DNA from: Verrucomicrobiota bacterium | GTDB lineage: Bacteria; Verrucomicrobiota; Verrucomicrobiia; Verrucomicrobiales; DEV007 | NCBI GenBank assembly: GCA_963205275.1 | Contig: CAUJIH010000020.1 | Span: 1 to 64,000 of the forward strand | Length of the DNA stretch: 64,000 nucleotides | Direction: 5' to 3' | Program-made: the position numbers and the translations under genes | Notes under the pieces: model-generated | Databases searched by the model: none | What the model saw: the letters and a program-made list of their open reading frames with translations, nothing else | Told to the model about the DNA's origin: nothing | Part shown: positions 30,341 to 56,514 of the stretch, in pieces | How the letters are laid out: every line of letters begins with the position of its first letter | How positions within the stretch are numbered: the stretch's first letter is position 1

Positions 30341-30406
30341 GATAAAAAAATGATGAGGACGTTGTCCCGTCGCTGACGAAAGAAATGTTTCGTGCCACTG
30401 TTTTCC

Positions 30407-33400
30407 ATGCAGAAATTCTGTTTCCCTCTTTTTCTTTTCGCTTCTCTGATTCTGCCCACTCTGCGGTCAGCGGATTTGCCACTCATTTTTCGCGATGACT
30501 TTACTGCCGGAGCCAAAGAATGGGAGTCCACCGATCCGAAGGCTTGGAAAATCACGGAAATCGACGGCAATCCCGCCTATGAAATTCTCGGGGGTTCACA
30601 GTACGAGCCTCCTTTTCGCAGTCCTTTGAACATCGCCATCCGACGCGATGGGATCGTCGGAGATTTCATTTTCACGGCACGAGTGCGGACAACGCGGGAA
30701 TCCTACGATCACAGGGATATGTGCGTGGTTTTCGGCTATCAGAATCCATCGAATTTCTACTACATCCATCTCGGCCAGCGCACGGACCCTCATGCAAATC
30801 AGATTTTTCTCGTCAATGAAGCTCCTCGAGTGGCGATCTCTGAAAAAACGACTGAAGGAACTCCTTGGGTGACTGGGAAATGGCACGATGTGAAAATCGT
30901 CCGTACCGTCGCCTCCGGTCGAATCGAGGTTTATTTCGACGACATGACGACGCCGACTCACCTTGCCCACGACAAGACGTTTACTTGGGGGCGAGTGGGC
31001 ATCGGCACTTTCGACGACAAGGGAATCTGGGATGATGTGGAGCTGCATGGTGTCGCCGTCGAGCCACCTGCATCGGCCTCTCGGGAAGGCCATCCCTCTT
31101 CCTTGATCTATACCAAGTGGACACCTAACTTTCAGGTGCCTGATCCGGTGGCGATCAGCTTCGATCCCCAAAGTCGCGCCTATGTGACACAGACCCAACG
31201 CCGAAAAGCGAACGATCTCGACATACGCGACAATACCGACTGGATTCCCAATGACCTCAGCTTCGAATCGCCGGATGACAAGCTCGCCTTTTACCGGTCC
31301 AAGTTCACTCCAGAGAATAGTGCCGCCAACGCGCATCGTGTCGAGGACTACAATGGCGACGGCCGGCACGACATACACGATCTGACCGTCTTGAGCGAGC
31401 GTATCTACCGCATTGAGGACACCAACGGCGACGGCACTGCCGATTCGATGAAAATCTATGCCGAACAGCTGAATCATCCGATCGGAGGAGTCGCCGGAGG
31501 CGTGCTCTGGTATGATGGCTCGGTGTACGCCTGTCCAGTGCCAGAGCTGGTCTCCTTCCGCGACAAAGATGGGGATGGAGTAGCAGATGAGAAGAAAGAA
31601 CTAGTCTATGGCTTCGGTGCCCACCTCGCATACGCCGGCCATGACATGCACGGCCTCTTTCTCGGTCCCGATGGGCGAATCTATTGGTCCGTCGGTGACA
31701 AGGGAATACGAGTCAAAACACCCGATGGTCTCGACTACCGATTTCCCCATCAGGGAGGGCTGATGCGCTGCGAACCCGACGGCTCTCAATTCGAGGTCTT
31801 TGCTCACGGCCAGCGAAACATTCAGGAGATTTCCTTTGATCAATACGGAAATTTCTTCGGAGTCGATAACGATGCCGACTTCGCCGGAGAGAAGGAGAGG
31901 CTCGTTTTCATCGAACAATACGGCGATCTCGGCTGGCGTTCGCACTGGCAATACCTGCGCGACGACTACAATCCCTGGGACAGTGAGAAAATGCACGTTC
32001 CGTGGCACGCCGATCAGTCACGTTGGTTCACGCCTACCATTGGCAATTACGAAAACGGCCCGGCAGGTTTTAAGTTCAATCCCGGTACGGCGCTCAGTCC
32101 CGCCTACGAGAATTATTTCTTCCTGACCAGTGCTCCGAATGGGCAACAGTGGGCCTTCCGAATCGAACCTCATGGTGACTCCTGGGCGATGCACAACGAT
32201 CACCAAATCGGTGATGGCATTCCTCTCGTGGGTCTCTGCTTTGCCCCCGATGGAGGGCTTTACTCCGTGGACTGGGGCGGCGGCTATCCCATGAACGAAA
32301 AAGGTGCCGTCTGGCGGATCGATGTCGCGAAGGATCAGGCCCATCCTCTCCGCGCCGAAACCCAGATGCTAATCGAGGCGGATTTTGCTAAAAAGGCTCT
32401 TTCTGAGCTGAGCGTGCTCCTCGGTTACGCCGATCAGCGCGTGCGTCTGAAAGCTCAGCTCGAGCTCGCAAAGCGCTCGGCTATCGATCAACTCCGCTCT
32501 GTCGCCACCTCAGTTGATGCACCTCAAATCGCTCGGATCCACGCCATTTGGGGAATCGGACAGCTTCAGCGCTGGAAGAAAGCCGACGATGCAGAACTGA
32601 CCGCACTCCTAGGCGATCCCGATCCAGAAATCCGCGCTCAAGCGATTCGCACTCTCACCGACAAATATGGGCGGCTGCTGGGTCTGGACAGAATTCCATC
32701 TCCCGATCCCCAGGCACCGGGGCTGACGAAAGCTCTGATCCCACATCTGGAAGACCCATCCCAGCGCGTTCGCATTCAGGCATTGATGGGGCTTGGGCGA
32801 TTGCGCGACCCTCTCGCAACCGAGGCTATTATCGGATTGCTTGCCCGGAAGGAGCATCATCCAGGGATGACCGCCCTTCGCCATGCAGGCACCATGGCTC
32901 TGGCGGGTGCGGCACCTGTCGAAGCGCTCGCCGCCCTCAGCAAAGATAAATCCGTCTTTGTTCGCACCTGCGCGGCCTTAGCTCTGGGACGCCGCGGCGA
33001 CCCTGCCGTGACCGCCTTTCTGGAAGACTCCGACAGTCTGATTTCCGCCGATGCTGCAATCGCCATCCATGATGATTGGATGATCCCCGAAGCGATGCCC
33101 GCTCTGGCGGCACATTTGGGAAAACACCTGGATCGGGGGTCTTTCGTACGACGCGCGATCAATGCGAATTTCCGTATCGGCACGACTGAGGCTGCCGAGC
33201 GCATCGTCAGTTTCGTTGCAGAGGGCAAGGCCGATGAATCCCTGCTGGAAGCCGGTCTGGAGGCTCTGCAAAACTGGGTGAATCCACCGAAACTCGATCT
33301 TGTCACCGGGCAGTTTCGTCCGCTCGAATCGCGTGATCCCGATGTGCTGACGAATGCACTGAAAGCTCACATCGATACTCTGCTCACATCGAAGTCAGCG

Positions 33401-34378
33401 AAAATCGTCTCTGGAGTGATGGAACTGGCGACAAAGGCGGAGCTTCCCATAGCCAATGGGACTCTACTGGCCGTCTTTTCCAATGCAGAGGCAGACGGGG
33501 CGCTGCGGGCCACCGCACTCCACTCCCTCGCCGCGCAAAAGGCATCAGGACTCACTGAGTTAATCTCCGCTGCTGCTGCTGATCCTGCCATTCCTGTGCA
33601 AATCGCCGTTTTGGATCTGCTCTCTGAAACCCAGCCAGACGAGGCCAAACTGGAAATCCAAAAACGGCTCGACGGAAAAGCAGCGACAGCGGTCAAGCAA
33701 CACGCCATCCGCTCACTCGCCCGTGTGAAAGAGGTCGAGCCTATGCGCGAGCTGCTGGCGAAACTTCAGGCAGGAAAGCTCTCTTCCGCCTTGCGACTGG
33801 ACGTGTATGAAGCAGCGCAAGACCCCGCGTTTTCTTCCGATTCGATCATCGTCACAGCCCTCACCGCCATTGAGAAAGAATGGACAAAAGCCGCCGTCAC
33901 GGATCCCGTCGCCCCCTTTCGCTACGCACTGGAGGGAGGAAACTCCGAGCGAGGAAAATCGATCATTCTGAACCATCCTGCCGCACAGTGTGCCGGCTGT
34001 CACAGGATCGACAAAGGGCCGGGAAGCAATGTTGGCCCAATACTGCAGGACATCGGAAAAAAGCGCGACCGCGCCTACATTCTTCAGAGCTTGATCGATC
34101 CGCAGGTTGTTGTTGCGAAGGGTTACGGGAATCTTTCGCTCAGTCTGAACGATGGGACGACCGTCGCTGGTCAGTTCTTGGAAGAGAAAGACGGGAAGGT
34201 GATCCTGAAGGATATTAGCAATAAGCAGACCGAAATCCCTGTCGCAAATATTCGCGACCGTTCTGCGATCATCTCAACCATGCCCCCGATGGGACTGATT
34301 TTAAATAAAGCCGAACTCCGCGACGTGGTCGCATATCTCGCGAGGAAGCCTGCCGACGATCCAAAGAAACAAAAATAG
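30407..34378 (+). CDS. Giant PVC-type secreted protein: LamG-like, sugar-dehydrogenase-like, HEAT and CxxCH domains
   Basis: A 1323-residue protein taken from the ATG at 30407 (a GTG at 30392 adds five residues). A signal peptide is visible (KFCFPLFLFASLILPTLRSA). Residues about 25-215 look like a concanavalin-type DUF1080/LamG domain. About 225-640 is an NHL/soluble-glucose-dehydrogenase-like propeller with EF-hand-like Asp repeats (DYNGDGRHDIHD; DTNGDGTADSM; DKDGDGVADEK). About 660-1080 holds HEAT-type repeats (IRAQAIRTL; VRIQALMGLGRL). At about 1195 CAGCH covalently binds haem c, followed by a cytochrome fold with a possible axial Met in STMPPMGL. This chain of domains is typical of periplasmic PVC proteins. 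A role in oxidation or electron transfer from carbohydrates is inference. Confidence 0.88.
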   Translation: MQKFCFPLFLFASLILPTLRSADLPLIFRDDFTAGAKEWESTDPKAWKITEIDGNPAYEILGGSQYEPPFRSPLNIAIRRDGIVGDFIFTARVRTTRESYDHRDMCVVFGYQNPSNFYYIHLGQRTDPHANQIFLVNEAPRVAISEKTTEGTPWVTGKWHDVKIVRTVASGRIEVYFDDMTTPTHLAHDKTFTWGRVGIGTFDDKGIWDDVELHGVAVEPPASASREGHPSSLIYTKWTPNFQVPDPVAISFDPQSRAYVTQTQRRKANDLDIRDNTDWIPNDLSFESPDDKLAFYRSKFTPENSAANAHRVEDYNGDGRHDIHDLTVLSERIYRIEDTNGDGTADSMKIYAEQLNHPIGGVAGGVLWYDGSVYACPVPELVSFRDKDGDGVADEKKELVYGFGAHLAYAGHDMHGLFLGPDGRIYWSVGDKGIRVKTPDGLDYRFPHQGGLMRCEPDGSQFEVFAHGQRNIQEISFDQYGNFFGVDNDADFAGEKERLVFIEQYGDLGWRSHWQYLRDDYNPWDSEKMHVPWHADQSRWFTPTIGNYENGPAGFKFNPGTALSPAYENYFFLTSAPNGQQWAFRIEPHGDSWAMHNDHQIGDGIPLVGLCFAPDGGLYSVDWGGGYPMNEKGAVWRIDVAKDQAHPLRAETQMLIEADFAKKALSELSVLLGYADQRVRLKAQLELAKRSAIDQLRSVATSVDAPQIARIHAIWGIGQLQRWKKADDAELTALLGDPDPEIRAQAIRTLTDKYGRLLGLDRIPSPDPQAPGLTKALIPHLEDPSQRVRIQALMGLGRLRDPLATEAIIGLLARKEHHPGMTALRHAGTMALAGAAPVEALAALSKDKSVFVRTCAALALGRRGDPAVTAFLEDSDSLISADAAIAIHDDWMIPEAMPALAAHLGKHLDRGSFVRRAINANFRIGTTEAAERIVSFVAEGKADESLLEAGLEALQNWVNPPKLDLVTGQFRPLESRDPDVLTNALKAHIDTLLTSKSAKIVSGVMELATKAELPIANGTLLAVFSNAEADGALRATALHSLAAQKASGLTELISAAAADPAIPVQIAVLDLLSETQPDEAKLEIQKRLDGKAATAVKQHAIRSLARVKEVEPMRELLAKLQAGKLSSALRLDVYEAAQDPAFSSDSIIVTALTAIEKEWTKAAVTDPVAPFRYALEGGNSERGKSIILNHPAAQCAGCHRIDKGPGSNVGPILQDIGKKRDRAYILQSLIDPQVVVAKGYGNLSLSLNDGTTVAGQFLEEKDGKVILKDISNKQTEIPVANIRDRSAIISTMPPMGLILNKAELRDVVAYLARKPADDPKKQK

Positions 34379-37979: not shown

Positions 37980-40709
37980 CTATTTTTCGAAAACGATCAT
38001 GGAGTGAATGTCTAGACGTGGAACGACCGTCTTTGTCACTCCGTCGTGGCATTCAATGCCCAGCTCCTTACCTTCTGGCAATAAGGTGACTCGGGCGAAG
38101 TCACCTCGGAGACTGACGGCTATTTCGTGAACAGGTAGAACCTCATCGCGAAACCATCCGAAGCTTTCAGGATTCGGGGCCGCCGATCGGCCAAAGGATG
38201 AGATGTCATTGACCAGATGGATGATCGCCGAATCTCCTTTTTCGAAGCACACCGTCTGCACGGTTAGGGGAGCATTCGTCTCGATTTGCGGGGGAGTTCC
38301 TGCGGCCCACCGAACGGAGCGATCAAGAATGAGGCGCGTGATCGGATGGTTAAAGCTGAAATATGCTCGCCCCATATCACCGGGGAAATACGCGACTCGA
38401 CCTTTCCCCACGCGATGAGTATGCAAGAGGCTGAATTTGTCTCCCAACCCGAGCAGGCTCACAGTCTCAAGCGCTGAATCTGGTAAGGGAACCGTTCGTA
38501 CGATGCCGGCAGGCCGAGTCACATGCGAACGAAACAGCATCAGGTGCGGTTTTCGCTCACGCGCTCCTTGGGTCGTATCGCCGCCCTCTCGAATCGCCGA
38601 TGTGTTCAAAATTTCGTGTTTTTGATTCACTCGAATCTGCCAATCGACGCCATTCGTGGACTGTTTCTGCTCGACTCCGAGCAGAGTCCGGACTGCGGAT
38701 TCCGCACGAGGGAAGCCATTTTCATCCCGACTGCCTGTCTCGTAAGTAATCACCAATCCCCCGCCCATCTCCGCATAGCGAGCGAGAGCCTTTGCTTGCC
38801 TGTCGCCGAGACAGGTGGAATTGGGCAAAATGACGCAGGGATATCGGTCGAGTGTCTCGTTCTTTTCCAGATCATCATCCGTGAGGATGGCGACGGGCAC
38901 ATGCGTCTCCAGCAGGCTCTGGAACATTCCAAATACATTCTCCAAATACGCACGCCTCCCTTGATCACCCAATAAGCCTCCCAGCCTAGCCAAGCTTCGC
39001 TCACTAAAATGAATCGCGGCATAAGGCGTCAAGCTTGCCCCTTTCATCGGCTGCTCACAGGCGGCCACATGGCTCCATATCCGCTTCATCGAATCCCAGT
39101 TCCCTCCGGTGACGACCCCAGGAGCTACTCCGTTCGCGAACATGGAATACGCGAGAGCTTCGTGATTCACATCGGTGTAAATCCCATTGACATGCCACAT
39201 CAGACCGTATCCGGGACTGGTTCGGCAATGGAGAAAAAGATTCTGCCAAGCACTCTGTATCGGCCAGGCGAAGGGGCGCTCAGGAGTTACGCGCCGAGAA
39301 ATTTCCCAGCCCATCTCCTCCAGCAGTCCATTGCCACACTGAGCGGCGCGACTACTGAGATACTCTGTGCCGTCAAACACCCAACCCACTGTCTGATTCC
39401 AGATGCAGGCAATCTCTGGATTCACCGCATTGAGCGCCTCCGTGACATCCAATATGAGCTCCTCTCTCGTCCAAATCTGGAAATCTATCCATCGCTGCCA
39501 AGTTAGATCGCGGGGATCTTCCTTTCGTGGTGGCTCGACTCCGAATTTCTTTTTGAAGGCTGCCACCGTCCAATCAGAATAGTCTCCACCTTTGGGGGCC
39601 GTGAACAGCATATCCACCATGATTCCATCCAATCCTGACTGTTTCGCCACCTGCACCCATCGATCAATATAGGCGGCTCGATACGGGGAATGCCAAGACC
39701 CAAAACCATGCTTGTACACCTTCCCCGAGGCATCCCTCTGACGCCATTCCGGATGATCCAACAACAAAGGATCCAGTGTGCGATGTGACCCATCGTAGAT
39801 CACGACCTTCAACCCCTCTGCATGGCCCGCATCGACGAACTCTTTGACCCAGGAATAATCGTCTCGACGGTACTTATCTGGATACTGAAAGTCTGCCTCG
39901 TCGATTTTGGCAAAGGGGTAAGCCTTCAGTTTTCCATCGAGCGTCCCGGCTGGCATCTCTCCTACCGCAAAGAGACAATTGCCACCTGCCTCGCGCACTT
40001 GCTTGGCCCAAGATTGAGGAGTATTCGCCGGATCCCATTCGAAGTGGCCATAGGCGGCACGCAATCCTTCTTCGATCAGCCAGCGAGGATGATTGCTTAT
40101 CCGTCTGTCGTGCCGAAGTTCGGGCAAGGGCTTGCCCTTTGGTGCCTCCTGCGCTCGACGCACCTGCATCGGAAGATGATCAGCAGGCTCGTAATCCGCC
40201 TTCCTCGTGAGGAAAAAGCAATCGGCCCGCAGTGCGCCTTGCCCGAGGATAAAGGTGTTTTCCCCCTTTTGAAGAGAAATCATTCCGAGCTTTTGCCATC
40301 GGTATGCCTTCTCCCCAGACAGACTTCCTAGCTCGGTCGTCTTTGCCAGCGATGCGCTTTGCAGCTGGGACTCATCCGTGCAATTGGCTCCGAAATGTGC
40401 CTTGGCCGTCCCTGGCACAGCACATCGCAACCATACTTGGTAGTCCCCTGCCTCCACGGTCAGGCGATAGGAGAGCGCCCCTTTTTGAAACAAACCGATC
40501 ACCACGGTGCCACCACTCGCATTGGAATCAGAGATCTTTTCTCCAAAAGACTCGTCGCTGTAAAAAGGGCGTCCCATGTAATCCTCCGCCTCAAAAAAAA
40601 GTCCTCCATCAAACTCGACAGTCGCACTGACGGAGGCCGCCGTTAAGAAACAGGGAAAAAAGAGAAAGAGAGACAATATAAAAAAGAAAGATCGAAGGGA
40701 CAAGTTCAT
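37980..40709 (-). CDS. Secreted glycoside-hydrolase-like protein with CBM-like and beta-galactosidase-type domains
   Basis: A 909-residue protein from the ATG at 40707-40709 (MNLSLRSFFFILSLFLFFPC), with a clear signal peptide ending near TAASVSA. Residues about 30-170 resemble a carbohydrate-binding jelly-roll (FDGGLFFEAEDYMG and DYQVWLRCAVPGTAKAHFG). From about 215 a TIM-barrel region has GGNCLFAVGEMPAG, GLKVVIYDGSHRTLDPLLL and DGIMVDMLFTAPKG. About 590-800 resembles the beta-galactosidase trimerisation-type Rossmann domain (LPNSTCLGDRQAKALARYAE; MGGGLVITYETG). The C-terminal part is beta-rich. Family membership (GH42/GHL-like) is inference and the catalytic acids cannot be assigned with certainty. 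It faces away from the ECF sigma gene. Confidence 0.78.
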   Translation of the reverse strand: MNLSLRSFFFILSLFLFFPCFLTAASVSATVEFDGGLFFEAEDYMGRPFYSDESFGEKISDSNASGGTVVIGLFQKGALSYRLTVEAGDYQVWLRCAVPGTAKAHFGANCTDESQLQSASLAKTTELGSLSGEKAYRWQKLGMISLQKGENTFILGQGALRADCFFLTRKADYEPADHLPMQVRRAQEAPKGKPLPELRHDRRISNHPRWLIEEGLRAAYGHFEWDPANTPQSWAKQVREAGGNCLFAVGEMPAGTLDGKLKAYPFAKIDEADFQYPDKYRRDDYSWVKEFVDAGHAEGLKVVIYDGSHRTLDPLLLDHPEWRQRDASGKVYKHGFGSWHSPYRAAYIDRWVQVAKQSGLDGIMVDMLFTAPKGGDYSDWTVAAFKKKFGVEPPRKEDPRDLTWQRWIDFQIWTREELILDVTEALNAVNPEIACIWNQTVGWVFDGTEYLSSRAAQCGNGLLEEMGWEISRRVTPERPFAWPIQSAWQNLFLHCRTSPGYGLMWHVNGIYTDVNHEALAYSMFANGVAPGVVTGGNWDSMKRIWSHVAACEQPMKGASLTPYAAIHFSERSLARLGGLLGDQGRRAYLENVFGMFQSLLETHVPVAILTDDDLEKNETLDRYPCVILPNSTCLGDRQAKALARYAEMGGGLVITYETGSRDENGFPRAESAVRTLLGVEQKQSTNGVDWQIRVNQKHEILNTSAIREGGDTTQGARERKPHLMLFRSHVTRPAGIVRTVPLPDSALETVSLLGLGDKFSLLHTHRVGKGRVAYFPGDMGRAYFSFNHPITRLILDRSVRWAAGTPPQIETNAPLTVQTVCFEKGDSAIIHLVNDISSFGRSAAPNPESFGWFRDEVLPVHEIAVSLRGDFARVTLLPEGKELGIECHDGVTKTVVPRLDIHSMIVFEK

Positions 40710-41178
40710 CACGAGACACACCTATCCGGCGTTCAGAGAGTCCAGTCTACAACGCAATCGAGGCTTTCAACGACTTACAGGACCCACAGGGGCAGGTGAT
40801 GACTCGCTCGGACAGGTGATTGCCTAACTGTCGAACTCCAGCACCATCACGGCACTAGCGAGCAGCTTCCCAGAGAACTGAAAAGCGGTCTCAAGCGGGA
40901 GCGCTTTCCCTCGTCTGATGACAAGAGCGAGCAACTGTGGCTGCCATTGAAAACGTTGGAATCACTGGAAACACTCGCCTACAAACTTCTCCGCAGTTTT
41001 GTGCTGCGAGACTTATGCAGGGAGGGAGGAAGCGCCTCAAACTTCTGCGATCCTGGGCGAGATGCGCAGTCACGCTGCCGAAAGCCATCCCTCGAAACAT
41101 GCGGATCGCAAACACAGGAATTATCTCGCGTGATCAGGTATTCGTCACAAAATCCACCAGAGCAGATATTGTATCAGT
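40710..41178. other. 469-bp gene-free region between GH-like gene and ECF sigma gene
   Basis: Divergent intergenic region with no supported gene. A short frame at 40937-41182 on the + strand ends in the sigma start and has no recognisable features. It should contain promoters for both flanking genes; I could not place -35/-10 pairs. Confidence 0.4.
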
Positions 41179-41772
41179 GTGAGTGATGATTTTCCGATAG
41201 CGGACGAGACGAAGCTCGTCATTCGGGTGCAGGGCGGAGATTTGATGGCGTTCGAGGGGCTTCTGAACGCCCATAGTTCCCGTCTGCGTGCCTTCGTGGC
41301 GATGAAATTACCGATTCCGCACCTAATCGATGAAATTGCACATGAGACCTTCCTTTTCGCTTGGAAACATATCCAGGAATTCGAGGCGGGCACTGATTTT
41401 GGGAAATGGCTGCGAGCAATCGCTTTTAACCTGATTCGCAAGGAAACTCTGCGCTATCAGCGCTCAGCACGGAATCAGGAAAAGCTACTTGAACACTGCA
41501 TCGCCGAAGAGGCGTGCCAAGGAGGATTCTCTCCCGATTTTCCGGAGCTTCCCGCATTGGAGGAATGCCTCGCACGCCTTCCGGAGAATCAGCGAAAACT
41601 GCTGGAGCGTCGCTACCGCTTCTCGGAATCTGCTCACGAGATCGCTGCGGCTCTCGGGCAGAGTGAAGCATGGGTTAGGACGACCCTGTATCGCATCCGA
41701 TCTGCTCTGAGGACTTGCATTGAACGACACCTTCAGGCACAACACGAACCTTTCCATCCACATGAATCCTGA
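41179..41772 (+). CDS. ECF-type RNA polymerase sigma factor
   Basis: A 197-residue sigma-70 family protein with regions 2 and 4 only. It starts at a GTG (41179) giving MSDDFPIADETKLVIRVQGG. Region 2 is DLMAFEGLLNAHSSRLRAFV with DEIAHETFLFAWKHIQEFEAGTDFGKWLRAIAFNLI; region 4 is LARLPENQRKLLERRYRFSE with EIAAALGQSEAWVRTTLYRI. This matches the ECF sigmas of PVC bacteria that are paired with FecR-LamG proteins. The FecR gene starts inside its last codons (11-bp overlap), so translation is probably coupled. It would be released or activated when its partner senses an external cue. Confidence 0.92.
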   Translation: MSDDFPIADETKLVIRVQGGDLMAFEGLLNAHSSRLRAFVAMKLPIPHLIDEIAHETFLFAWKHIQEFEAGTDFGKWLRAIAFNLIRKETLRYQRSARNQEKLLEHCIAEEACQGGFSPDFPELPALEECLARLPENQRKLLERRYRFSESAHEIAAALGQSEAWVRTTLYRIRSALRTCIERHLQAQHEPFHPHES

Positions 41773-43324
41773 AGAATTGGAATCCTATCTGTCCGGGAGT
41801 CTTCTTGGGGAAGAGCGTGATCATCTGGAGCACCTTCTCGCCCATGACTCCGAACTTCGGGCACGATTCATCGAACAGATCCAAGTTGATGCTGCTTTAC
41901 GTGCACTTTTAGGAGGAGACGGGAATCATGGTTTGGTGAAAGGGGTTATGGCGCGTCTGCACAGTGAAGTCATGAGTGACAGAGATTTCGCCAAGTCTGT
42001 GCTGCTGGAGATCGTAGAAGAAAGAGAGAAGCGACGCTCGATTCCGTGGCGAGATATCATCACAGCCTGTATTGTTTCCGCAGCGGCTAGCATCGGCCTC
42101 TTATTACTTTTCCAATCGATTGCATTTCGAGGCGGGCAATCACATCCCCATTCTCCTACATCGTTTGTCGCCCATCTCGAGCGATCAGAAAATCTAGTCT
42201 GGAATGAATCATGTCGATCACTCGTCCGAGCGGATGGCTGGCTGACTCCCGGCTTTCTCAAACTCGATTCCGGGAGTATCGCCGTCACCTTCAACTCGGG
42301 AGCGACCGTCCTGATCGAAGGGCCCTCTGAGTTCGGCATTGAGTCCGGCAATCGGATGTTCCTGAAGTCAGGGCGACTCGTGGCGGAAGTTCCTGATAAA
42401 GCACATGGATTTACTGTCAATACCCCGCGAATCAACGCTGTGGACCTCGGAACCCGATTTGGATTAGATGTGACTGCGGACGGGACGTCGGATCTCCATG
42501 TGATGCAAGGGATCGTGGCCGCGAGTCGGACGAGCGGAAACACGGCTACCACTATCGTTCATGAGGGACTTGCGGTGCGAGCTGACGGACGAAGCAGAAG
42601 TCCGCTCCAGTCACTCGACTATGGAGGAGATACCTTTCGCCTGCGTTTGGGAGCGCAGTCCTCGAAATCTCCGGCTCTGCGATTTCGATTTGATGAATCG
42701 AGCGGATCTCTTCTCCAAGATACGGGAACGGACCGACGCTTTGACATTGCTCTCGTCGCACCCGGTGGTCTGGATCGGTCGCCACGGCGAAGCCTTGGGC
42801 ATTCGGGCGGAGGGTTGAGCTTCCAGCCTTGGGAGAGTCTAGAGATTCCGCTTTCTCCGCAGTTTCGCGTAGAGCAGCCGCATACCATCGCCCTTTGGCT
42901 CCGTCTCGACGTGTCTGATTCAGGAGAAAAGACTCCTGAGCGCATTCTGCGTTTCGGAGACTCCAGTTCACAAAGCTGGAATCTCTCGGTGAATCACGAG
43001 TCGAATTATGGAGTGCTTGGTGCCCTGCGCATCGATTGGGGAAGGGGAATTCTCGTGGGCAGCACTGACTGCGCGGATGGAAACTGGCATCATGTCGCGT
43101 ATCGATTTCTGGGTGGCACTGATCCGTCCTCGCGAATTCATCTGTTCGTGGACGGGCGACCGGAAATCATTAGTTATTCTCATGCAGAAGATCTACCGAT
43201 CAGTGAGGCAAAAAGACTCTCTCTTGGGCGAAGTCAGGAGGAGGGATTTCGCGGCAGCATCGATGATTTAGTCGTTTTCCGAATTGCTTTACCGACTCCA
43301 ACCCTCCAGAAATATAGCAATTGA
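41762..43324 (+). CDS. FecR-like transmembrane protein with LamG domain (probable sigma regulator)
   Basis: A 520-residue protein from the ATG at 41762 (MNPEELESYLSGSLLGEERD), 11 bp inside the ECF gene; longer frames begin in the middle of the sigma gene. The cytoplasmic N-terminal ~95 residues resemble anti-sigma anchor helices. One transmembrane segment follows (TACIVSAAASIGLLLLFQSI, about 101-120). A FecR domain covers about 150-265 (LIEGPSEFGIESGNRMFLKS; VNTPRINAVDLGTRFGLDV). A LamG/concanavalin domain follows at about 300-515 (IALWLRLDVSDSGEK; WHHVAYRFLGG; RIHLFVDGRP). FecR acts as sigma regulator in Gram-negative bacteria; the LamG domain suggests binding of a glycan. That this pair governs the adjoining DUF1549/DUF1501 genes is inference. 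Confidence 0.88.
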   Translation: MNPEELESYLSGSLLGEERDHLEHLLAHDSELRARFIEQIQVDAALRALLGGDGNHGLVKGVMARLHSEVMSDRDFAKSVLLEIVEEREKRRSIPWRDIITACIVSAAASIGLLLLFQSIAFRGGQSHPHSPTSFVAHLERSENLVWNESCRSLVRADGWLTPGFLKLDSGSIAVTFNSGATVLIEGPSEFGIESGNRMFLKSGRLVAEVPDKAHGFTVNTPRINAVDLGTRFGLDVTADGTSDLHVMQGIVAASRTSGNTATTIVHEGLAVRADGRSRSPLQSLDYGGDTFRLRLGAQSSKSPALRFRFDESSGSLLQDTGTDRRFDIALVAPGGLDRSPRRSLGHSGGGLSFQPWESLEIPLSPQFRVEQPHTIALWLRLDVSDSGEKTPERILRFGDSSSQSWNLSVNHESNYGVLGALRIDWGRGILVGSTDCADGNWHHVAYRFLGGTDPSSRIHLFVDGRPEIISYSHAEDLPISEAKRLSLGRSQEEGFRGSIDDLVVFRIALPTPTLQKYSN

Positions 43325-43365
43325 ATTGTTTTATAATTGTCATAAAATATCGATAAATCGATTCA

Positions 43366-43390
43366 AAGAAATAATTCGATCTTATTTCTT
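43366..43390. promoter_or_regulatory. 25-bp inverted repeat upstream of the DUF1549 gene
   Basis: AAGAAATAA-TTCGATC-TTATTTCTT is a perfect 9-bp stem with a 7-base centre, 73 bp before the ATG of the DUF1549/1553 gene and 42 bp after the FecR stop. It could be an operator or an AT-rich terminator-like structure. A second palindrome, ATCGATAAATCGAT, lies at 43349-43362. Confidence 0.5.
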
Positions 43391-43462
43391 GTAACACCTT
43401 TTCTTCTTTCGGTTATTCTCCATTGGCGACTATCCTGTGAGAAGTCTTGCGTCGATCCTATC

Positions 43463-45655
43463 ATGAAAATTCGTTTTACTCGTCTGTTTCTCGCTCTGCT
43501 ATCTACCGGAGCGCTCATATTGACCGCAGGTTCCGCTTGGGCGGAAGTTCGAACTTGGACCTCTTCTGACGGTCGCACTGTCCAAGCAGAATTCATCGGC
43601 ACATCGGGAGCGGGAACGAATGCGACGGTGAAACTCAAGCTCTCCGATGGCAAAATCGCCGAGTATCCGATCAGCAAACTCAGTGAGCAAGATCGTATCT
43701 TCGTCAAGGGCAATCTCCCAACCGATCCGGCCGCGCTCGCTGAGGAAATCGATACACTGGTGATGAACAAGCTCAAAGAGAGCTATTACGGATTGCAGGC
43801 GGAACTGGCAGCACTACCGACCAAGGAAGGGCTCACACCAGATGAGAAAGCGAATCGAAAAATGGAAATTGATCGCGAGATGCAAATGTGCGTACCGAAC
43901 CCTACAACGAGCGACAATCAGTTTCTTCGTCGAATTTATCTCGATGTTGTAGGCCGAATCCCGACTTATGATGAGGCCGACGCATTCTTGAATGATCGCA
44001 GCCCGAACAAGCGTGCCGTTCTGATCGATAAGCTCCTGAATTCCGAGGGCTTTGTCATGCGAATGTACAACTACTATTCCGATCTTCTCCGCATCCGCGA
44101 CGGCTTGGTTATGATGGGTAATGACTCACTAAAAGTCGATTCCTATATGGAGTGGGTGAAGGACTGCGTTCGCACAGATAAGCCACTCAACACGATGGTA
44201 AAGGAGATGCTGACAGCGACTGGCAAGCTCTGGGACTCACCAGCGACCGGGTTTATGGTGACAGATGATGGAATGCCTCTGTGCAATCTCTCCAACACCT
44301 TCACCGTTTTCATGGGGACAGAAATCACCTGCGCTCAGTGTCACGACCACCCGTTCGAAGAAGTCTATCAGATGGATTTCTACAAAATGGCCGCATTTAT
44401 GGGGGAAACGGTGACAAGAGCACGCGGTGGTGACAATTACAGAAATGAAGTAGACCGGATGAGTCAGATTCTGAAAGCAGCAGGAAAACTGCCTCCAAAG
44501 GTAAATCAGGATAATGCTCTGTCCCGCTGGTTCGGGTCGAATCGGACAGACGTGCTCGACACAAATGAAAATACTGTCCGGCTACCTCACGACTACAAGT
44601 ATGATGACGGCGAGCCGAATATGAAGATCGAGCCAGCAACGTACTTTGGCGACAAAATGGATGTGACCAAATACAAGACTCCTCGTGAGGCCTTTGCTGA
44701 CTGGGTAATCTCACCGAATAACCCGCGCTTCACAGTGAACGTCGTGAATCGCTTCTGGAAACTCGCGTTTGGACTCGCCCAAATCGAGCCAGTGGACAAT
44801 CTGCCCGGACACCTCGACGGGCAGGCGGAGAACTACCAACTGCTCACCTTTCTAGAGGAAATGATGAAGGATCTGAACTACTCCGTGAAGGGCTTTTTCC
44901 GCGTTATTTACAATACCAACACCTACCAGCGCGAAGCTGAGACCATGACGCCCAGTCTAACTCAGGTGGATACTGGCACCTATCACTTCCCTGGACCAGT
45001 GCTACGCCGAATGAGCGCCGAGCAGATCTGGGATTCCCTCGTTGCTCTGACAACCGCCGATCCGGAGTCAGTAACCCGGAAGGGCGCTGATCGCTATAAA
45101 GAGGTCATGGATGTCGCCCCTGCCTCACTAACCACTGCGGATCAGATCGAGAAGTGGAAAAAAGAGTGGACCAGCGTCAGCCGCTTGGTAAGAAATGGAG
45201 GAGAAGAGGTCTCCAAGGATGAACGCGTTGGTGGTCAACAGATGTTTCGAGCGTCCGAATTGCGTCAGCCGATGCCGCCAGATCACTTCCTTCGAATGTT
45301 CGGCCAGTCAGACAAGCAACTGATCGAGAACCAGTTCACCACAGGTTCCTCTCCGCAGGTTATGGCCCTCCTCAACGGCGAGATTACAAATAAGGTCCTC
45401 ACCAGCCCTGATGCCTATCTGATCAAGGAGATCGCCTACGGGAAGGGAAGCAAGAGAGATAATATCGACAAAATCTTCCTCAGCGTGCTCACTCGCTATC
45501 CCACCTCGGAAGAGAAGACGATCGCTCAGTCAGGGATGCGGGCGAAGACAAACCGTGACATGAACGAACAGCAAAAGATGGAGGTCGAGGCACAAGCGAT
45601 CGGGAATGTCATCTGGGCGCTCGTGAATGCCCGTGAATTCATGTTCGTTCAGTGA
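43463..45655 (+). CDS. Secreted DUF1549/DUF1553 protein with N-terminal SHD1-like domain
   Basis: A 730-residue protein with a signal peptide (TRLFLALLSTGALILTAGSAWA). Residues 29-85 form an SHD1-like small domain (VRTWTSSDGRTVQAEFIGTS; YPISKLSEQDRIF). DUF1549 follows (FLRRIYLDVVGRIPTYDEAD; CAQCHDHPFEEVYQMDFYKM, with a CxxCH), and DUF1553 covers about 400-730 (NPRFTVNVVNRFWKLAFG; YQREAETMTPSL; FLSVLTRYPTSEEKTIAQSG). In Planctomycetes and Verrucomicrobia this family is always next to a DUF1501 gene, as here. No reaction is known; a role in outer-surface polymer metabolism is suspected from genomic context only. Confidence 0.92.
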   Translation: MKIRFTRLFLALLSTGALILTAGSAWAEVRTWTSSDGRTVQAEFIGTSGAGTNATVKLKLSDGKIAEYPISKLSEQDRIFVKGNLPTDPAALAEEIDTLVMNKLKESYYGLQAELAALPTKEGLTPDEKANRKMEIDREMQMCVPNPTTSDNQFLRRIYLDVVGRIPTYDEADAFLNDRSPNKRAVLIDKLLNSEGFVMRMYNYYSDLLRIRDGLVMMGNDSLKVDSYMEWVKDCVRTDKPLNTMVKEMLTATGKLWDSPATGFMVTDDGMPLCNLSNTFTVFMGTEITCAQCHDHPFEEVYQMDFYKMAAFMGETVTRARGGDNYRNEVDRMSQILKAAGKLPPKVNQDNALSRWFGSNRTDVLDTNENTVRLPHDYKYDDGEPNMKIEPATYFGDKMDVTKYKTPREAFADWVISPNNPRFTVNVVNRFWKLAFGLAQIEPVDNLPGHLDGQAENYQLLTFLEEMMKDLNYSVKGFFRVIYNTNTYQREAETMTPSLTQVDTGTYHFPGPVLRRMSAEQIWDSLVALTTADPESVTRKGADRYKEVMDVAPASLTTADQIEKWKKEWTSVSRLVRNGGEEVSKDERVGGQQMFRASELRQPMPPDHFLRMFGQSDKQLIENQFTTGSSPQVMALLNGEITNKVLTSPDAYLIKEIAYGKGSKRDNIDKIFLSVLTRYPTSEEKTIAQSGMRAKTNRDMNEQQKMEVEAQAIGNVIWALVNAREFMFVQ

Positions 45656-45718
45656 GCCGAAAATCAGAAATATTAATTTCTCTGTTAACGAAGTCTAAGC
45701 ATTACAATACAGCACAAA

Positions 45719-47044
45719 ATGAAAGAACTGTTTAATCAACTCGATCCGTTCAGTCGTCGTCAATTCGTTCTGCGTGCCGCCCAAACGGCACTTGGAGTCA
45801 GCATCCTGCCCATAGGAGCGGCGTCCATCGTTCGGGCAGCGGGAGGTGCTGGTGGAAAGGCCAAGCGTGGAATTCTGCTCTATATGTCTGGGGGGATGTC
45901 TCACATGGACACATTCGACCCGAAACCAGGGGCAGAAACTGCAGGGAAAACTCAGGGTATCGATACGGGTGTCGCCGGTGTTCAGTTGGCGGAATTTCTA
46001 CCCGAACTGGCCAAGAGGTTTAAGGATATCGCCGTGATCCGGTCGATGAATCAAAAAACTGGAGATCACCGTGGTGGCTCCTACTGGGTGCGAACGAGCT
46101 ATGAAAAGCGTGCCACGATCGTGCACCCCACGATGGGTCCTTGGGCTCAGACCTTACTCGGCAAAGCACACGATACGCTGCCTGATTCCGTGGTGATCGG
46201 TGGAGGTGGAGAGCACCCTGGATCGGGCTTCTTTGGCCCAGCCCTTTCCCCGCTGCCAATCGGCGATCCGGATCGCGGAGTGCAGAACTCCCATCCTTAT
46301 CAGGGAGTCGGTACGGATCTCTTCGAAAAGCGCATGGATCTGATGAATACCTTTGATCAGTCCTTCCGCCGTAAGTTCCAGACCGATGAGGTGAAGGCGT
46401 ACACCCAGTTTTATGATGAGACGCTCAAGCTCATGAAGAGCAAGGATCTAGATACCTTTGATCTCTCGAAGGAGAAAGATTACCAGCAAAAGGTAGAGCG
46501 CTATGGAAATACCCGGATCGGAAAGGGAGCAATCTTGGCCAAGCGTCTTGTCAGCGCTGGGGTTCGCTTCGTCGAAGTCGTCTCCGGTGGATGGGATATG
46601 CACAATGACTTGTGGGGTGAAATTCCTTCCACAGCCGGTGAAATGGACAAGGCGATCTCTGCTTTAATTGATGATCTCAAAGCTGAGGGTCTTTTCGAGG
46701 AAACGATCATCGCTGTGGCCACGGAGTTTGGCCGAACTCCGATCATTAACGCCAATGCAGGTCGAGACCACCATCCACGTGTGTTCTCCACGATGTTGGC
46801 AGGTGGCGGTATTGTCGGTGGGCAGGTGTACGGAGCGTCCGATGAGAAGGGAATCGCAGTGAAGGAGGATATCTGTAATCCACAGGACTTCAATGCTACC
46901 ATCGCCTATGCCCTCGGCTTGGATCTGAACAAGGTAATCTATTCACCGTCCGGTCGTCCCTTCTTGGTAGCGGGACACACCCGGGATCCGAAGACGGATC
47001 AAATCGTATCTGCAGGTAAGCCGATCATGCAACTCTTCTCCTGA
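45719..47044 (+). CDS. DUF1501 protein (sulfatase-like fold, Tat-exported)
   Basis: A 441-residue protein starting FNQLDPFSRRQFVLRAAQTA, where the twin arginine and following hydrophobic stretch form a Tat signal peptide. The core is typical DUF1501: GILLYMSGGMSHMDTFDPKP, GSYWVRTSYEKRATIVHP, the YQQKVERYGNTRIGKGAILA block, WDMHNDLW and FGRTPIINANAGRDHHPRVF. The fold is related to alkaline phosphatase/sulfatase, but the family has no proven activity. It starts 63 bp after the DUF1549/1553 gene, and a strong terminator follows 25 bp after its stop. The two genes therefore form the end of the operon that may begin at the ECF sigma gene. Confidence 0.93.
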   Translation: MKELFNQLDPFSRRQFVLRAAQTALGVSILPIGAASIVRAAGGAGGKAKRGILLYMSGGMSHMDTFDPKPGAETAGKTQGIDTGVAGVQLAEFLPELAKRFKDIAVIRSMNQKTGDHRGGSYWVRTSYEKRATIVHPTMGPWAQTLLGKAHDTLPDSVVIGGGGEHPGSGFFGPALSPLPIGDPDRGVQNSHPYQGVGTDLFEKRMDLMNTFDQSFRRKFQTDEVKAYTQFYDETLKLMKSKDLDTFDLSKEKDYQQKVERYGNTRIGKGAILAKRLVSAGVRFVEVVSGGWDMHNDLWGEIPSTAGEMDKAISALIDDLKAEGLFEETIIAVATEFGRTPIINANAGRDHHPRVFSTMLAGGGIVGGQVYGASDEKGIAVKEDICNPQDFNATIAYALGLDLNKVIYSPSGRPFLVAGHTRDPKTDQIVSAGKPIMQLFS

Positions 47045-47067
47045 TCAGTATCAGATCAATTCTGCAC

Positions 47068-47106
47068 GAAAGAGACCCGAGGGAACCCTTGGGTCTCTTT
47101 TTTTTG
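47068..47106 (+). terminator. Rho-independent terminator after DUF1501
   Basis: AAAGAGACCCGAGGGAACCC (stem half) with GGGTCTCTTTTTTTT: AGAGACCC pairs perfectly with GGGTCTCT, extended by GGG/CCC around an AA loop, and is followed by an 8-T tract. It lies 25 bp after the DUF1501 stop. Confidence 0.92.
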
Positions 47107-47210: not shown

Positions 47211-48956
47211 ATGAACAGATCCGATCCATCCGATCATTCAAATCCTCGAAAACCAAGGGGTGAAGAGGAGGTAATGGAGAGAGCAGGTATCCTCATTACA
47301 GAAAGGGATTCGATTACACCTCTCGGACCGACAATTGTATTCGCTGACGAAGCGATGGCGAATCTAACTGGATACAGAACGAAGGATCTGATCGGCTCGC
47401 CTCTAGGGATGGTTTATGACCGATCTGAGATCACTTCCCTCATCGAACGATTGCCGATAATCGCCACAGCGCCGGGAAGGCGGCACTATTTCAAAATCGG
47501 CTCCCTAGTACGGAGTGACAGGAGACGACTTGCATGTCGGTGGACGATACGCCTCGAAGCTCTCCAAGCCTCGCAGGGCGAATTTTTTGTAATCACGGTA
47601 AAGCTCATTCCACAGGAATCGGAGGAGTTGCATACAGAGACTAGGTCTGGGCATCACTCAAATCCCCAGTCATCTCTCCGAAAAATCACATTGGAAAATC
47701 GGCTCAATACCCAGCCAACAGTCAATGAGTCTCAAACCGAATTACGGATTTCGCCGAACCAGGCACACGTTCTTAGTGAGCCGCAATCACCTGCAACTCC
47801 AGAAACTCCAGAAACTCCAGCGCCTTCCGCACCCGGCAGCGAGTCTCTGCGCATCACGGCGGCTGGTGTAGTCCACGATTTCAAGAATGCGCTACAGGTC
47901 ATTCGGATGAACCTAGAATGTGCGGAGAACGACTGTGTCACTGTACCGGGCGTAATGGAATGGCTTCGGGATGCCCAGGCAGCGCTCACGGATGCGGAGG
48001 CGCTAGCTGGTCAGATGCTCGCATTCACGCGTGAGGAGAGCAGCCAAAAATCTGCAATTAAAATTGACGGTTTGATTCAGCGGGCGCAGCAGTTGGGGAT
48101 GGCAGGATCACACATCCGCTGTCGTACGTTCCTTAAGCATTCGCCCACTATTTTCGCTAACTCGCCCCAGATCTATCAGGTTCTCCACAATCTCGTCTTT
48201 AACGCACGTCAAGCGATGCCAACCGGTGGCACCATCGATATCATCCTAGATCGTGCAGAGTTCGGTGTTCCGAATCGCTTCGGATTGAAGCCCGGAGTCT
48301 ACCTAGTTCTTTCGGTCACTGACAAGGGCGTAGGAATCTCTAAAGAGGACCTTCCTCATATTTTCGACGCAGGCTTTTCTACAAAAGTGGGTGGGAACGG
48401 GATCGGGCTCGCCTCGTGTCGTGCGATTGTACAGGAACACGGAGGGCACATTGATGCGGCTTCAAAGGTGGGAGTTGGAACGGAATTCCTTGTTTTCCTC
48501 CCGACAATCGATCCTGTTGAAGAGTGTCCGCAATCGAACTCAAGCGCCGCCATCCTGGAATTAAAATCAGCGCAAAGCTCTGTCCGTGCGGGGAGAGGGC
48601 GCATCTTAGTCGTGGAAGATGACCCCAGAGTTGCACGCTCTACCGTGGGCGGACTACGGCAATTAGGATACGATTCGGTTCATGCCTCGACTGGCCCCGA
48701 AGCCTTGGCACTCTATCGCAAGCATCTGGAGGCCTTTGATCCCATTGATCAGATACTGCTGGATATGACCCTAATGGGCGGAATGTCTGGATCCGAAGTA
48801 GCGAACGAGCTACTGCGCCTCAATCCGAATGCCCGTATCATCGCGACGAGTGGGAACCTCCAAGGCGAGTATACGCCTGAGAACAGTCCTTACGCGGCGG
48901 TTCTCCCGAAGCCTTTCGGAAAAGCAGACCTAGCTCGAGTACTGGAGCGTGAGTGA
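47211..48956 (+). CDS. Hybrid histidine kinase (PAS-HisKA-HATPase-REC)
   Basis: A 581-residue soluble kinase with no membrane segment. A PAS-like sensor occupies about 30-140 (PTIVFADEAMANLTGYRTKD; LIGSPLGMVYDRSE). A linker holds a Pro/Glu/Thr tandem repeat (PATPETPETPAPS). The HisKA H-box is AAGVVHDFKNALQVIRMNLE at about 220, with phospho-His in VHDF. The ATPase part has N-box LHNLVFNARQAMP, DKGVGISKEDLPHIFDAG and GNGIGLASCRAI. The C-terminal receiver (about 460-580) has RILVVEDDPRVAR and phospho-Asp in QILLDMTLMGG. By family it transfers phosphate to its own receiver; a downstream partner is not adjacent. Its terminator-separated position makes it independent of the DUF1501 operon. Confidence 0.9.
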   Translation: MNRSDPSDHSNPRKPRGEEEVMERAGILITERDSITPLGPTIVFADEAMANLTGYRTKDLIGSPLGMVYDRSEITSLIERLPIIATAPGRRHYFKIGSLVRSDRRRLACRWTIRLEALQASQGEFFVITVKLIPQESEELHTETRSGHHSNPQSSLRKITLENRLNTQPTVNESQTELRISPNQAHVLSEPQSPATPETPETPAPSAPGSESLRITAAGVVHDFKNALQVIRMNLECAENDCVTVPGVMEWLRDAQAALTDAEALAGQMLAFTREESSQKSAIKIDGLIQRAQQLGMAGSHIRCRTFLKHSPTIFANSPQIYQVLHNLVFNARQAMPTGGTIDIILDRAEFGVPNRFGLKPGVYLVLSVTDKGVGISKEDLPHIFDAGFSTKVGGNGIGLASCRAIVQEHGGHIDAASKVGVGTEFLVFLPTIDPVEECPQSNSSAAILELKSAQSSVRAGRGRILVVEDDPRVARSTVGGLRQLGYDSVHASTGPEALALYRKHLEAFDPIDQILLDMTLMGGMSGSEVANELLRLNPNARIIATSGNLQGEYTPENSPYAAVLPKPFGKADLARVLERE

Positions 48957-49043
48957 GCCGATGCGTGACAGCGTAGAGCGGCTATCCCATGGTGAAAGAA
49001 CTCTTGGTCGATCACCCCATCCACTTGATTTCGATTCGATCAG

Positions 49044-49838
49044 CTAGCGATTCGGGAAATACCAACGAGCAAAATTGTCACGTATCTGGGCTTTCAGAGC
49101 TTCCAGATCGCATTCACGTCGCTGAGAAACCGCTTCATAAATCGTCTCCAAGTTTCCCGGAAGATTCACGGAGGTCGCCTCCGACTGAAAACGAATGAGT
49201 TCTGACGGAGGAAGCATGTCAGGCGCATCGGTTTCGATCAGGATTCGAGAATCAGGAATTTGATCGAAGACCGCAAGCCGCTCGCATTTCTCTGGGCGAA
49301 AAAATGCGCCAGAAAGGGAGAAGAAAGCTCCCAGTCGAAGGAAGTCATCGATCATCTCTGCAGGACCGCTATACGAGTGCAGGAGCGGGCGACGCACGAG
49401 TCGAACGGTCTGAAGAAATTCGAGTAGCGTCCCCCATGCGGCGACGCAGTGAATGGAAACGGGGCGATCCAGTTGATTCGCTAGATCGAGCTGAGCGCTG
49501 AACACGGTCCTCTGCTTCCCCCAATCCACTCGCCGACCTCGACTCCCCCGATCCAGTCCGATTTCACCAACCCCAGCACGAGGATTCGATCCCAGGAGAC
49601 GAGCCAGATCAGAAAGCCAGGATTCGTCTGGCACAGAGTCAGCCCACCAAGGATGCAGGCCATAACAGGGAATGATCTCCGGGTACTGCTGAGCCAAATT
49701 TTCTACGACAATCCAGTCTTCTGGACGGGTTCCATTTACGACCAGATACTGCACGCCGATTTGACGACTAATCCCCAGAATTTCCGGTATCCTCGATCTT
49801 AACCTCGGATCCTGCAGATGCAGATGCGCATCGATCAT
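49044..49838 (-). CDS. TatD-family metal-dependent DNase
   Basis: A 264-residue protein starting at the ATG 49836-49838 (MIDAHLHLQDPRLRSRIPEI); the open frame to 50135 lies inside the sufE-like gene on the same strand but another frame. Metal ligands are in DAHLHL, IIPCYGLHPWW, GEIGLDRG, SIHCVAAW, LLHSYSG and ILIETDAPDML. The fold is a TIM-barrel amidohydrolase. Bacterial TatD proteins degrade DNA or RNA ends, or proofread tRNA; the specific role is unknown here. Its ATG overlaps the TGA of the upstream SufE-like gene by four bases (ATGA), which implies coupled translation. Confidence 0.88.
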   Translation of the reverse strand: MIDAHLHLQDPRLRSRIPEILGISRQIGVQYLVVNGTRPEDWIVVENLAQQYPEIIPCYGLHPWWADSVPDESWLSDLARLLGSNPRAGVGEIGLDRGSRGRRVDWGKQRTVFSAQLDLANQLDRPVSIHCVAAWGTLLEFLQTVRLVRRPLLHSYSGPAEMIDDFLRLGAFFSLSGAFFRPEKCERLAVFDQIPDSRILIETDAPDMLPPSELIRFQSEATSVNLPGNLETIYEAVSQRRECDLEALKAQIRDNFARWYFPNR

Positions 49839-50263
49839 AGCCCTAATTCGGAAAGTGACCGCACACGCTCGACCAGCATCTGTCGCAAGTTCGAAAGGCC
49901 ACGTCGCCGGGTCGGAGTAAGCTGGCGATCCACACCCAGCCTTTGCAGGAAGATGGGTTCTGTATCGATGATCTCCTGATCGGGCGCATCGTGATACAGA
50001 CGACAAAACAGAGCAGCGATCGCGTCCAGAGCAGGTGAGTACGATTCGATTTGCACCGAGCAGTTTCCGCTCTCGAGACGGCTCACCACTAGATAAACGC
50101 GGGAAACGCAGCCTGGCACCAAATTCGCCTCGCAACGATTCGCCTCTGAGATTGCGGCACGATCAGTAGTCACCGTCTCCACGATCACCTGAAAGCGCTC
50201 GTATGGATCTTCAATCGGAGCGTAGTCTCCGATGATTTGTTCCTGTCGTTCTACCACCGTCAT
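49835..50263 (-). CDS. sufE: SufE-family sulfur-acceptor protein
   Basis: A 142-residue SufE-like protein. The sulfur-accepting Cys is C52 in NLVPGCVSRVYLVV. The N-terminus TVVERQEQIIGDYAPIEDPY and the segment IESYSPALDAIAALFCRLYH with FLQRLGVDRQLTPTRRRGLS also match the family. SufE receives sulfur from the cysteine desulfurase SufS and enhances iron-sulfur cluster assembly; no sufS, sufB or sufC gene is nearby. It is followed by TatD with a four-base overlap. Some SufE-like proteins instead serve NAD or tRNA sulfuration, so the exact partner is open. Confidence 0.9.
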   Translation of the reverse strand: MTVVERQEQIIGDYAPIEDPYERFQVIVETVTTDRAAISEANRCEANLVPGCVSRVYLVVSRLESGNCSVQIESYSPALDAIAALFCRLYHDAPDQEIIDTEPIFLQRLGVDRQLTPTRRRGLSNLRQMLVERVRSLSELGL

Positions 50264-55845: not shown

Positions 55846-56514
55846 ATGAAAACCACGATTCCCCTTGGCACTCTGACAGCTCTGATCGCGAGCTGTCCCC
55901 TCGCTTTTTCTTTGGCTGTGGAGCCTGGAGAAGCGCAGAACTCGGTCGAACCACCAATGATTGGGCTGGACGATTATGCGTCGCTCAAGGGGCAGTCGCC
56001 ATTTTTGCGATCGCTCAATTTGAGCGATTCCCTGATTCTCACCGGATTCGCGAACACGGGCGCGGGTCAGATTGCTACGATCATCAATAAGGAGACGAAG
56101 GAAACCTACGTGATTTCCGATCAGCCGAACTCGCAGGGATGGAAAATGGTAGAACTGAGGGCCGATCCCGACATTGAAAAGGCCTCAGTCAAAGTCGCTA
56201 TCGACAATGGTGAAGTTGTCACAATTCGTCATACAGACCTCAAACTCAAACCAGGAGAGGCAAAGCCTGCCGCCGGGCCCTCGACTGAGGTCAACGGGAG
56301 TCCCACCGCGATCATGGAATCCCAACGTCGCCGAAATGGCTGGCGCGGTGGCCCTTCTCCTGAAACCCGTGAAAAATTACACAAACTGACGGAGGCGCAG
56401 AGATCGGAACTATTCCAGAAAATGCGCGCTCTCCGCCAGGAGCGTCCCGAAATGTCATGGGAAGAGCGAGGGAAGATATTCAACGCGACGCTCGAGGGAA
56501 TGACGAACAAGTGA
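55846..56514 (+). CDS. Secreted protein of unknown function
   Basis: A 222-residue protein with a signal peptide (TIPLGTLTALIASCPLAFSL) and likely cleavage near AFSLA-VE. The mature part has a compact domain at about 38-135 (YASLKGQSPFLRSLNLSDSL; GAGQIATIINKETKETYVIS; GWKMVELRADPD). It reads like a small beta-rich periplasmic domain with an acidic strand. A C-terminal helical region at about 160-222 follows (TREKLHKLTEAQRSELFQKM). I do not recognise the family. It lies 86 bp before the first sulfatase and on the same strand, so it may share a transcript. Confidence 0.7.
   Translation: MKTTIPLGTLTALIASCPLAFSLAVEPGEAQNSVEPPMIGLDDYASLKGQSPFLRSLNLSDSLILTGFANTGAGQIATIINKETKETYVISDQPNSQGWKMVELRADPDIEKASVKVAIDNGEVVTIRHTDLKLKPGEAKPAAGPSTEVNGSPTAIMESQRRRNGWRGGPSPETREKLHKLTEAQRSELFQKMRALRQERPEMSWEERGKIFNATLEGMTNK

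Follow-up and report, generated by a model that had tools for sequence, protein, structure and literature searches.

A predicted ECF sigma factor module for DUF1549/DUF1553 and DUF1501 proteins in a Verrucomicrobiota bacterium

Genes and proteins of the locus

This study concerns a four-gene locus of a Verrucomicrobiota bacterium (Verrucomicrobiales, DEV007; assembly GCA_963205275.1). The locus lies in the first 64,000 nucleotides (nt) of contig CAUJIH010000020.1, and this whole stretch is hereafter called the window. An extracytoplasmic function (ECF) sigma factor gene is followed on the same strand by the genes of a FecR-LamG protein, of an SHD1-DUF1549-DUF1553 protein and of a DUF1501 protein (Table 1). 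An earlier note on this DNA had described these genes together with a divergent gene for a glycoside hydrolase (GH)-like protein. All five open reading frames (ORFs) were present with the domains that it had named, the ORF coordinates confirmed the overlap of 11 nt between the sigma and FecR-LamG genes, and the strong terminator that it had placed after DUF1501 was also found.

Table 1. Features of the locus in the window, and loci of the fusion protein in another genus
Feature	Coordinates	Strand	Remarks
ECF sigma factor, 197 amino acids (aa)	41179..41772	+	GTG start; regions 2 and 4; Rhodopirellula/Verrucomicrobium type
FecR-LamG protein, predicted membrane anti-sigma factor	41762..43324	+	ATG at 41762; Pfam FecR and Laminin_G_3
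SHD1-DUF1549(PSCyt2)-DUF1553(PSD1) protein, 730 aa, predicted exported	43463..45655	+	Pfam
DUF1501 protein, 441 aa, predicted exported	45719..47044	+	Pfam, 343.9 bits
Intrinsic terminator, end of operon	47068..47101	+	15-bp stem, 4-nt loop, T-run
GH42/GHL6-like secreted protein, divergent, neighbour only	37980..40721	-	Start at 40718 or 40721
Predicted ECF promoter of the sigma gene (autoregulated)	41143..41171	+	CGTCACA-N15-GATATTG, -36 from GTG
Predicted ECF promoter of the DUF1549-DUF1501 operon	43390..43418	+	TGTAACACCTTTTCTTCTTTCGGTTATTC, 0 mismatches to the strict motif
Fusion loci	L081:7064-9979; L082:7065-9974; L228-L240		ECF sigma gene immediately upstream, with its own conserved promoter

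In the Pfam scan, the sigma protein matched Sigma70_r2 (28.4 bits) and Sigma70_r4_2 (39.6 bits), both above the cut-off, and no match to region 3 was obtained. Regions 2 and 4 only are what defines an ECF (group IV) factor. The best NCBIfam model was TIGR02989 (Sig-70_gvs1), at 123.2 bits, 1.3 below its cut-off of 124.55. The ECF assignment is also consistent, computationally, with a co-transcribed membrane anti-sigma factor (gene overlap, transmembrane segment and FecR domain) and with an autoregulated promoter motif; autoregulation is a standard signature of ECF factors. The GTG start is kept in most relatives.

The FecR-LamG protein consists of a cytoplasmic N-terminus (residues ~1-98), a transmembrane segment (~99-118, with the hydropathy peak at 99), a FecR domain (173-252) and a LamG domain (366-511). 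The FecR domain scored 27.0 bits against a Pfam cut-off of 24, which places a FecR-type anti-sigma factor beside the sigma factor. The start at 41762 is confirmed by the relatives, most of which have GTG, TTG or ATG as the homologous codon, usually 3-15 nt past the sigma stop. This arrangement, an ECF sigma factor and then an anti-sigma factor with one transmembrane segment and a periplasmic FecR domain, resembles FecI/FecR signalling. It differs in that LamG replaces the receptor-coupled C-terminus and in that the targets would be haem-type and DUF1501 proteins. None of the window proteins scanned to the left and right of the module was a FecA-like TonB-dependent transducer.

The third protein matched DUF1549 (138.9 bits) and DUF1553 (116.2 bits) above the cut-offs and carries one invariant CxxCH motif (CAQCH, residues 290-294), a predicted site of haem attachment, as expected of the PSCyt2/PSD1 proteins. 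A Sec-type signal peptide was recognised by inspection. Many other DUF1549 proteins of the genome carry PSCyt1 too, with the domains encoded within a few hundred bases in one long open frame. In the window protein SHD1 (Pfam score just under the cut-off) takes the place of PSCyt1; its fold matched the SHD1 domain of Sla1 (2hbp) with a Z score of 8.7 at 28% identity. A search of solved structures returned no relative of DUF1549/1553.

The DUF1501 protein has a twin-arginine-type N-terminus. Its AlphaFold model, with a predicted local distance difference test score (pLDDT) of 77, superposed on members of the alkaline phosphatase superfamily, namely ENPP6 (Z 19.2), PafA (18.8) and several sulfatases (~17). 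In VIA-align the Z scores ranged from 16.7 to 19.2 across 244-279 residues, with a root-mean-square deviation of 3.0 over 245 residues, whereas sequence identity was just 10-14%. Weak sequence-profile matches to sulfatases were also obtained, and the invariant residues include H62, D67, D293, H295, E336 and H351. As modelled, DUF1501 has the alkaline-phosphatase/sulfatase-superfamily fold.

Conservation of the gene order and of a shared promoter motif

The window proteins were compared by tblastn with 36 stretches from genomes of the same genus. The order sigma, FecR-LamG, DUF1549/1553, DUF1501 was kept wherever the contig reaches (~33 species), which is far beyond chance. Mean identities within the genus were 65% for sigma, 47% for FecR-LamG, 69% for DUF1549/1553 and 75% for DUF1501. 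Judged by these values, FecR-LamG, which is the putative sensor, evolves faster than the other three proteins. The named relatives are metagenome-assembled genomes (MAGs) of Verrucomicrobiales, for example Akkermansiaceae bacterium UBA2367. At 40-70% identity, another Verrucomicrobiales MAG (L071) has the identical four-gene set with both promoters, and a more distant locus (L074) reads sigma, FecR-LamG, PSCyt1-DUF1549-DUF1553. DUF1501 genes whose products are ~61% identical to the window protein were also seen at L072:8534-9841 and L073:2929-4236; there they have no DUF1549 neighbour and come after a large gene resembling a transporter of the resistance-nodulation-division (RND) type.

Footprinting of the upstream regions gave the consensus TGT(C/A)AC(A/G)-N15-GnTATnC, that of one ECF-type promoter. 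The alignment of the FecR-DUF1549 intergenic regions contained a single conserved block, TGT(C/A)ACA-N15-G(A/T)TAT(A/T)C, and the sigma gene was preceded by a matching block, in many cases 35-39 nt ahead of its start codon. With a single regular expression, a script found the motif before the sigma gene in 31 of 33 regions, where shuffles predict 0.025 regions; a strict search additionally found the sigma promoter of L096. Before DUF1549 the motif was present in 27 of 34 orthologues, and in 29 of 37 regions when paralogous pairs are included (0.1 in shuffles). On both strands of 1.14 Mb of locus sequence there were 61 matches, as against 60 counted at the sigma and DUF1549 promoters, and the motif is almost absent away from its promoters, other genera included. 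The proposal of the earlier note that the sigma/anti-sigma pair controls DUF1549/1553-DUF1501 is supported by this shared motif. The note had also called for a common promoter motif upstream of the DUF1549 gene and of the GH-like gene; it was found before the former, and before the sigma gene, but not before the latter.

The distance from promoter to start codon is ~36 nt at the window sigma gene and at the PSCyt1-SHD1 genes of L191 and L192, discussed below. This distance suggests that the sigma mRNA (window 41171-41179) would be leaderless or nearly so, and that the cytochrome mRNAs would be leaderless.

The strict motif occurred at 3 sites in the window's genome, and at none with a reversed-pattern control. 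The one-mismatch search returned 35 sites against 25 in the control, which leaves the strict form alone as suitable for scanning a genome. One of the three sites is the window DUF1549 promoter, one lies within a coding region on the antisense strand, and one precedes another operon of the DUF1549/1553-DUF1501 type, located on contig C32 (L134:5269-9343), where a perfect motif stands 24 nt ahead of the ATG. The DUF1549 protein of that operon carries a long Pro-Ala repeat (APAPAPVAQAPKP) behind its signal peptide. A one-mismatch motif in the window itself (56453-56481, plus strand; TGTCATGGGAAGAGCGAGGGAAGATATTC) lies ~120 nt ahead of a sulfatase gene (56600), within the end of the preceding ORF, and may be due to chance.

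Across 15 genomes of the genus there were 38 matches against 10 in the control, 20 of them at the module locus and 4 directly ahead of a PSCyt1 protein of ~200 aa. Across 23 genomes outside the genus the count (10 against 12 in the control) was at chance level. When the orthologues and close paralogues of this PSCyt1-SHD1 protein in the genus were collected, 18 of 23 were preceded by the motif with up to 2 mismatches, where shuffles gave 0.27; most of these motifs stand at -35 to -37. Several sigma-less paralogous pairs share the promoter, and DUF1549-DUF1501 pairs of this kind bear the motif in two genomes (L125, L127). The earlier note had held that finding the DUF pair without the sigma pair in related genomes would count against a functional unit. 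Such pairs were seen only as paralogues, and the orthologues in the genus always have the sigma pair.

Split and fused forms of the cytochrome

The stand-alone PSCyt1 protein has a C-terminal SHD1-like domain that matches the SHD1 of the window protein (hhalign probability 98, E 1.1e-13). Because the two proteins share a promoter and SHD1, and because a fused form occurs elsewhere, PSCyt1-SHD1 and SHD1-DUF1549-DUF1553 are suggested to form a single redox unit. The PSCyt1-SHD1 gene of the window genome itself (L184:2542-3138) comes directly after an RND-type-transporter-like gene.

In one genus of Verrucomicrobiaceae, a protein of ~970-1000 aa is encoded directly behind a sigma gene. It is a fusion of, in order, an anti-sigma-like N-terminal segment, a hydrophobic, transmembrane segment, PSCyt1, DUF1549 and DUF1553. 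The sigma gene lies immediately upstream in 12 of 12 loci with complete flanks, and DUF1501 follows the fusion in the loci from named records. The sigma promoter of this lineage is conserved, with a diverged consensus (GCCACAC ... CGTCCATA). This gene fusion is an independent line of evidence linking the DUF1549/1553 proteins to the sigma circuit.

Interpretation and alternative explanations

Because of the synteny, the promoter motif, the motif-bearing genes and the fusion, the sigma factor very probably controls itself and exported haem-type and DUF1501 proteins. The whole explanation that we consider likely from these comparisons is a self-contained ECF module that would switch on both itself and DUF1549/1553-DUF1501. 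FecR-LamG would bind the sigma factor through its cytoplasmic N-terminus, and a signal at the extracytoplasmic FecR/LamG part would set the sigma factor free. The free sigma factor would then recognise the TGT(C/A)AC(A/G)-N15-GnTATnC promoters and transcribe both the DUF1549/1553-DUF1501 operon and, in a positive feedback loop, its own gene. In the window's genome it would also drive the C32 operon in trans, and in many relatives the stand-alone PSCyt1-SHD1 c-type cytochrome. The exported products would probably cooperate in the periplasm, PSCyt1-SHD1 and SHD1-DUF1549-DUF1553 as a split redox unit and DUF1501 as a metal-dependent partner of phosphatase/sulfatase fold, with an anionic envelope or extracellular substrate as the presumed target. 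Such a haem-redox and metallo-hydrolase pair seems to us the most likely role, and we put it forward tentatively.

Several facts weigh against this explanation. The window sigma promoter is at the usual position (-36) with 2 mismatches to the strict consensus. A DUF1549 promoter is missing at 7 orthologous loci; readthrough is likely at two of them (L128, L129), since the FecR-DUF1549 gap there is only ~30 nt, and was assumed at the other five. No motif was found upstream of the window genome's own PSCyt1-SHD1 copies, and some cytochrome promoters elsewhere carry a CGTAAC/GGTAAC variant, which may belong to another, paralogous ECF factor. The N-termini of the fusion protein and of FecR-LamG showed modest similarity (hhalign probability 64, E 6.6e-5). 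The AlphaFold2 model of the DUF1549 protein was poor (pLDDT 62.8), and for this reason no claim on its fold is made beyond SHD1.

It was suggested in the earlier note that the locus serves carbohydrate-inducible polymer use, in which glycan binding by LamG would lead the sigma factor to turn on the GH-like, DUF1549 and DUF1501 genes for degradation or uptake. LamG is indeed a concanavalin-like lectin fold, and PSCyt genes are found near sulfatases and sometimes with carbohydrate-binding modules according to He et al. 2017 (PMC5615132). The LamG fold alone, however, is no proof of sugar sensing. The GH-like protein matched Glyco_hydro_42M over the cut-off and GHL6 below it, but its gene has no motif upstream within 2 mismatches, is not at the locus in the same-genus stretches and is without a homologue in 26 further genomes of the genus. 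On these grounds it is judged not to be a member of the module, contrary to what had been proposed. Moreover, none of the window's carbohydrate-active genes recurs next to the module, the neighbouring proteins scanned included neither a TonB receptor nor an uptake protein, and the fusion lineage has a cytochrome-DUF protein where the LamG sensor would be. A polymer-use locus is thus quite unlikely. Coincidence is less probable still and already disfavoured: the sigma pair would regulate other genes, with DUF1549-DUF1501 adjacent by chance in one lineage. The genome's other DUF1549 genes do lie mostly away from sigma genes of this type, and the genome has further such sigma genes in different surroundings, some of them followed by an anti-sigma-like gene. 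Against this stand the common promoter before sigma and DUF1549, the motif ahead of unlinked DUF1549-DUF1501 operons and the gene fusion.

An envelope or redox stress response would leave the wiring of the ECF module as described and change only its signal and purpose, damage or redox state taking the place of a nutrient. A 2009 microarray study of Rhodopirellula baltica (PMC2754498) reports that the ECF factor RB10049 was induced by several stresses (heat, cold and salt), and it credits Studholme et al. with having proposed RB10049 as the regulator of the DUF1549/1553 protein RB10051. The haem motifs in PSCyt1 and DUF1549, and the cytochrome carried on the anti-sigma factor in the fusion, would also fit such a response. 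On the other hand, Rhodopirellula is a different phylum with a different sigma factor, stress induction on the microarray is broad, and the role of LamG would be left unexplained. We regard a stress response as possible, though rather unlikely.

The link between an ECF factor and DUF1549 is therefore already proposed for Rhodopirellula, where an ECF sigma gene likewise lies near the DUF1549/1553 gene. The available text of that study does not report a promoter, a regulon, a FecR-LamG anti-sigma factor, a DUF1501 partner or a cytochrome. Within the non-subscription papers searched, the promoter, the regulon, the split cytochrome and the fusion appear to be new. He et al. 2017 (PMC5615132) describe PSCyt/PSD proteins from freshwater members of the Verrucomicrobia, whose function they call unknown; the portion available gives neither a promoter nor a regulon. 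The proteins studied here share with those PSCyt1-PSCyt2-PSD1 proteins the DUF1549 and DUF1553 domains and an adjacent conserved family, here DUF1501. They differ in that PSCyt1 is split onto an SHD1-tagged protein, which shares the motif in relatives, and in that a dedicated sigma factor is predicted to be in control.

Several features surround the module in the window. Upstream, positions 30392-34375 (plus strand) encode a protein of 1328 aa that contains DUF7133 and HEAT repeats and weakly matches cytochrome c, a make-up typical of the secreted haem-type proteins of Planctomycetes-Verrucomicrobia-Chlamydiae (PVC) bacteria. Past the terminator, a hybrid histidine kinase gene and a convergent TatD gene (47211-50135) remain downstream in most genomes of the genus. 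An RNA family scan of the window found one tRNA only, and a scan for sigma-70 housekeeping promoters was uninformative (13 sites, 8.2 expected).

A further possibility, which we hold to be doubtful, is that the DUF1549/DUF1553 haem-type system is itself within the signalling circuit, as a cytochrome-gated ECF sigma system. If so, release of the sigma factor in the fused lineage would depend directly on the state of a periplasmic c-type cytochrome enzyme, either its redox state or its occupancy by substrate. The lineage of the window would then have a split circuit, with FecR-LamG as the sensor and the cytochrome, DUF1549 and DUF1501 as the output.

PVC genomes hold many copies of DUF1549, DUF1553, PSCyt1 and DUF1501, ~20 in the window's genome, and we know of no function for them. 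The self-contained ECF module would link these families to a single sigma factor through one small regulon with a sharp promoter. From the fusion, and from the split cytochrome with its SHD1 tag, one can predict which of the proteins contact each other. A single inducer screen, or overexpression of the sigma factor, would turn on the entire set, and the role of these families would thereby become directly testable.

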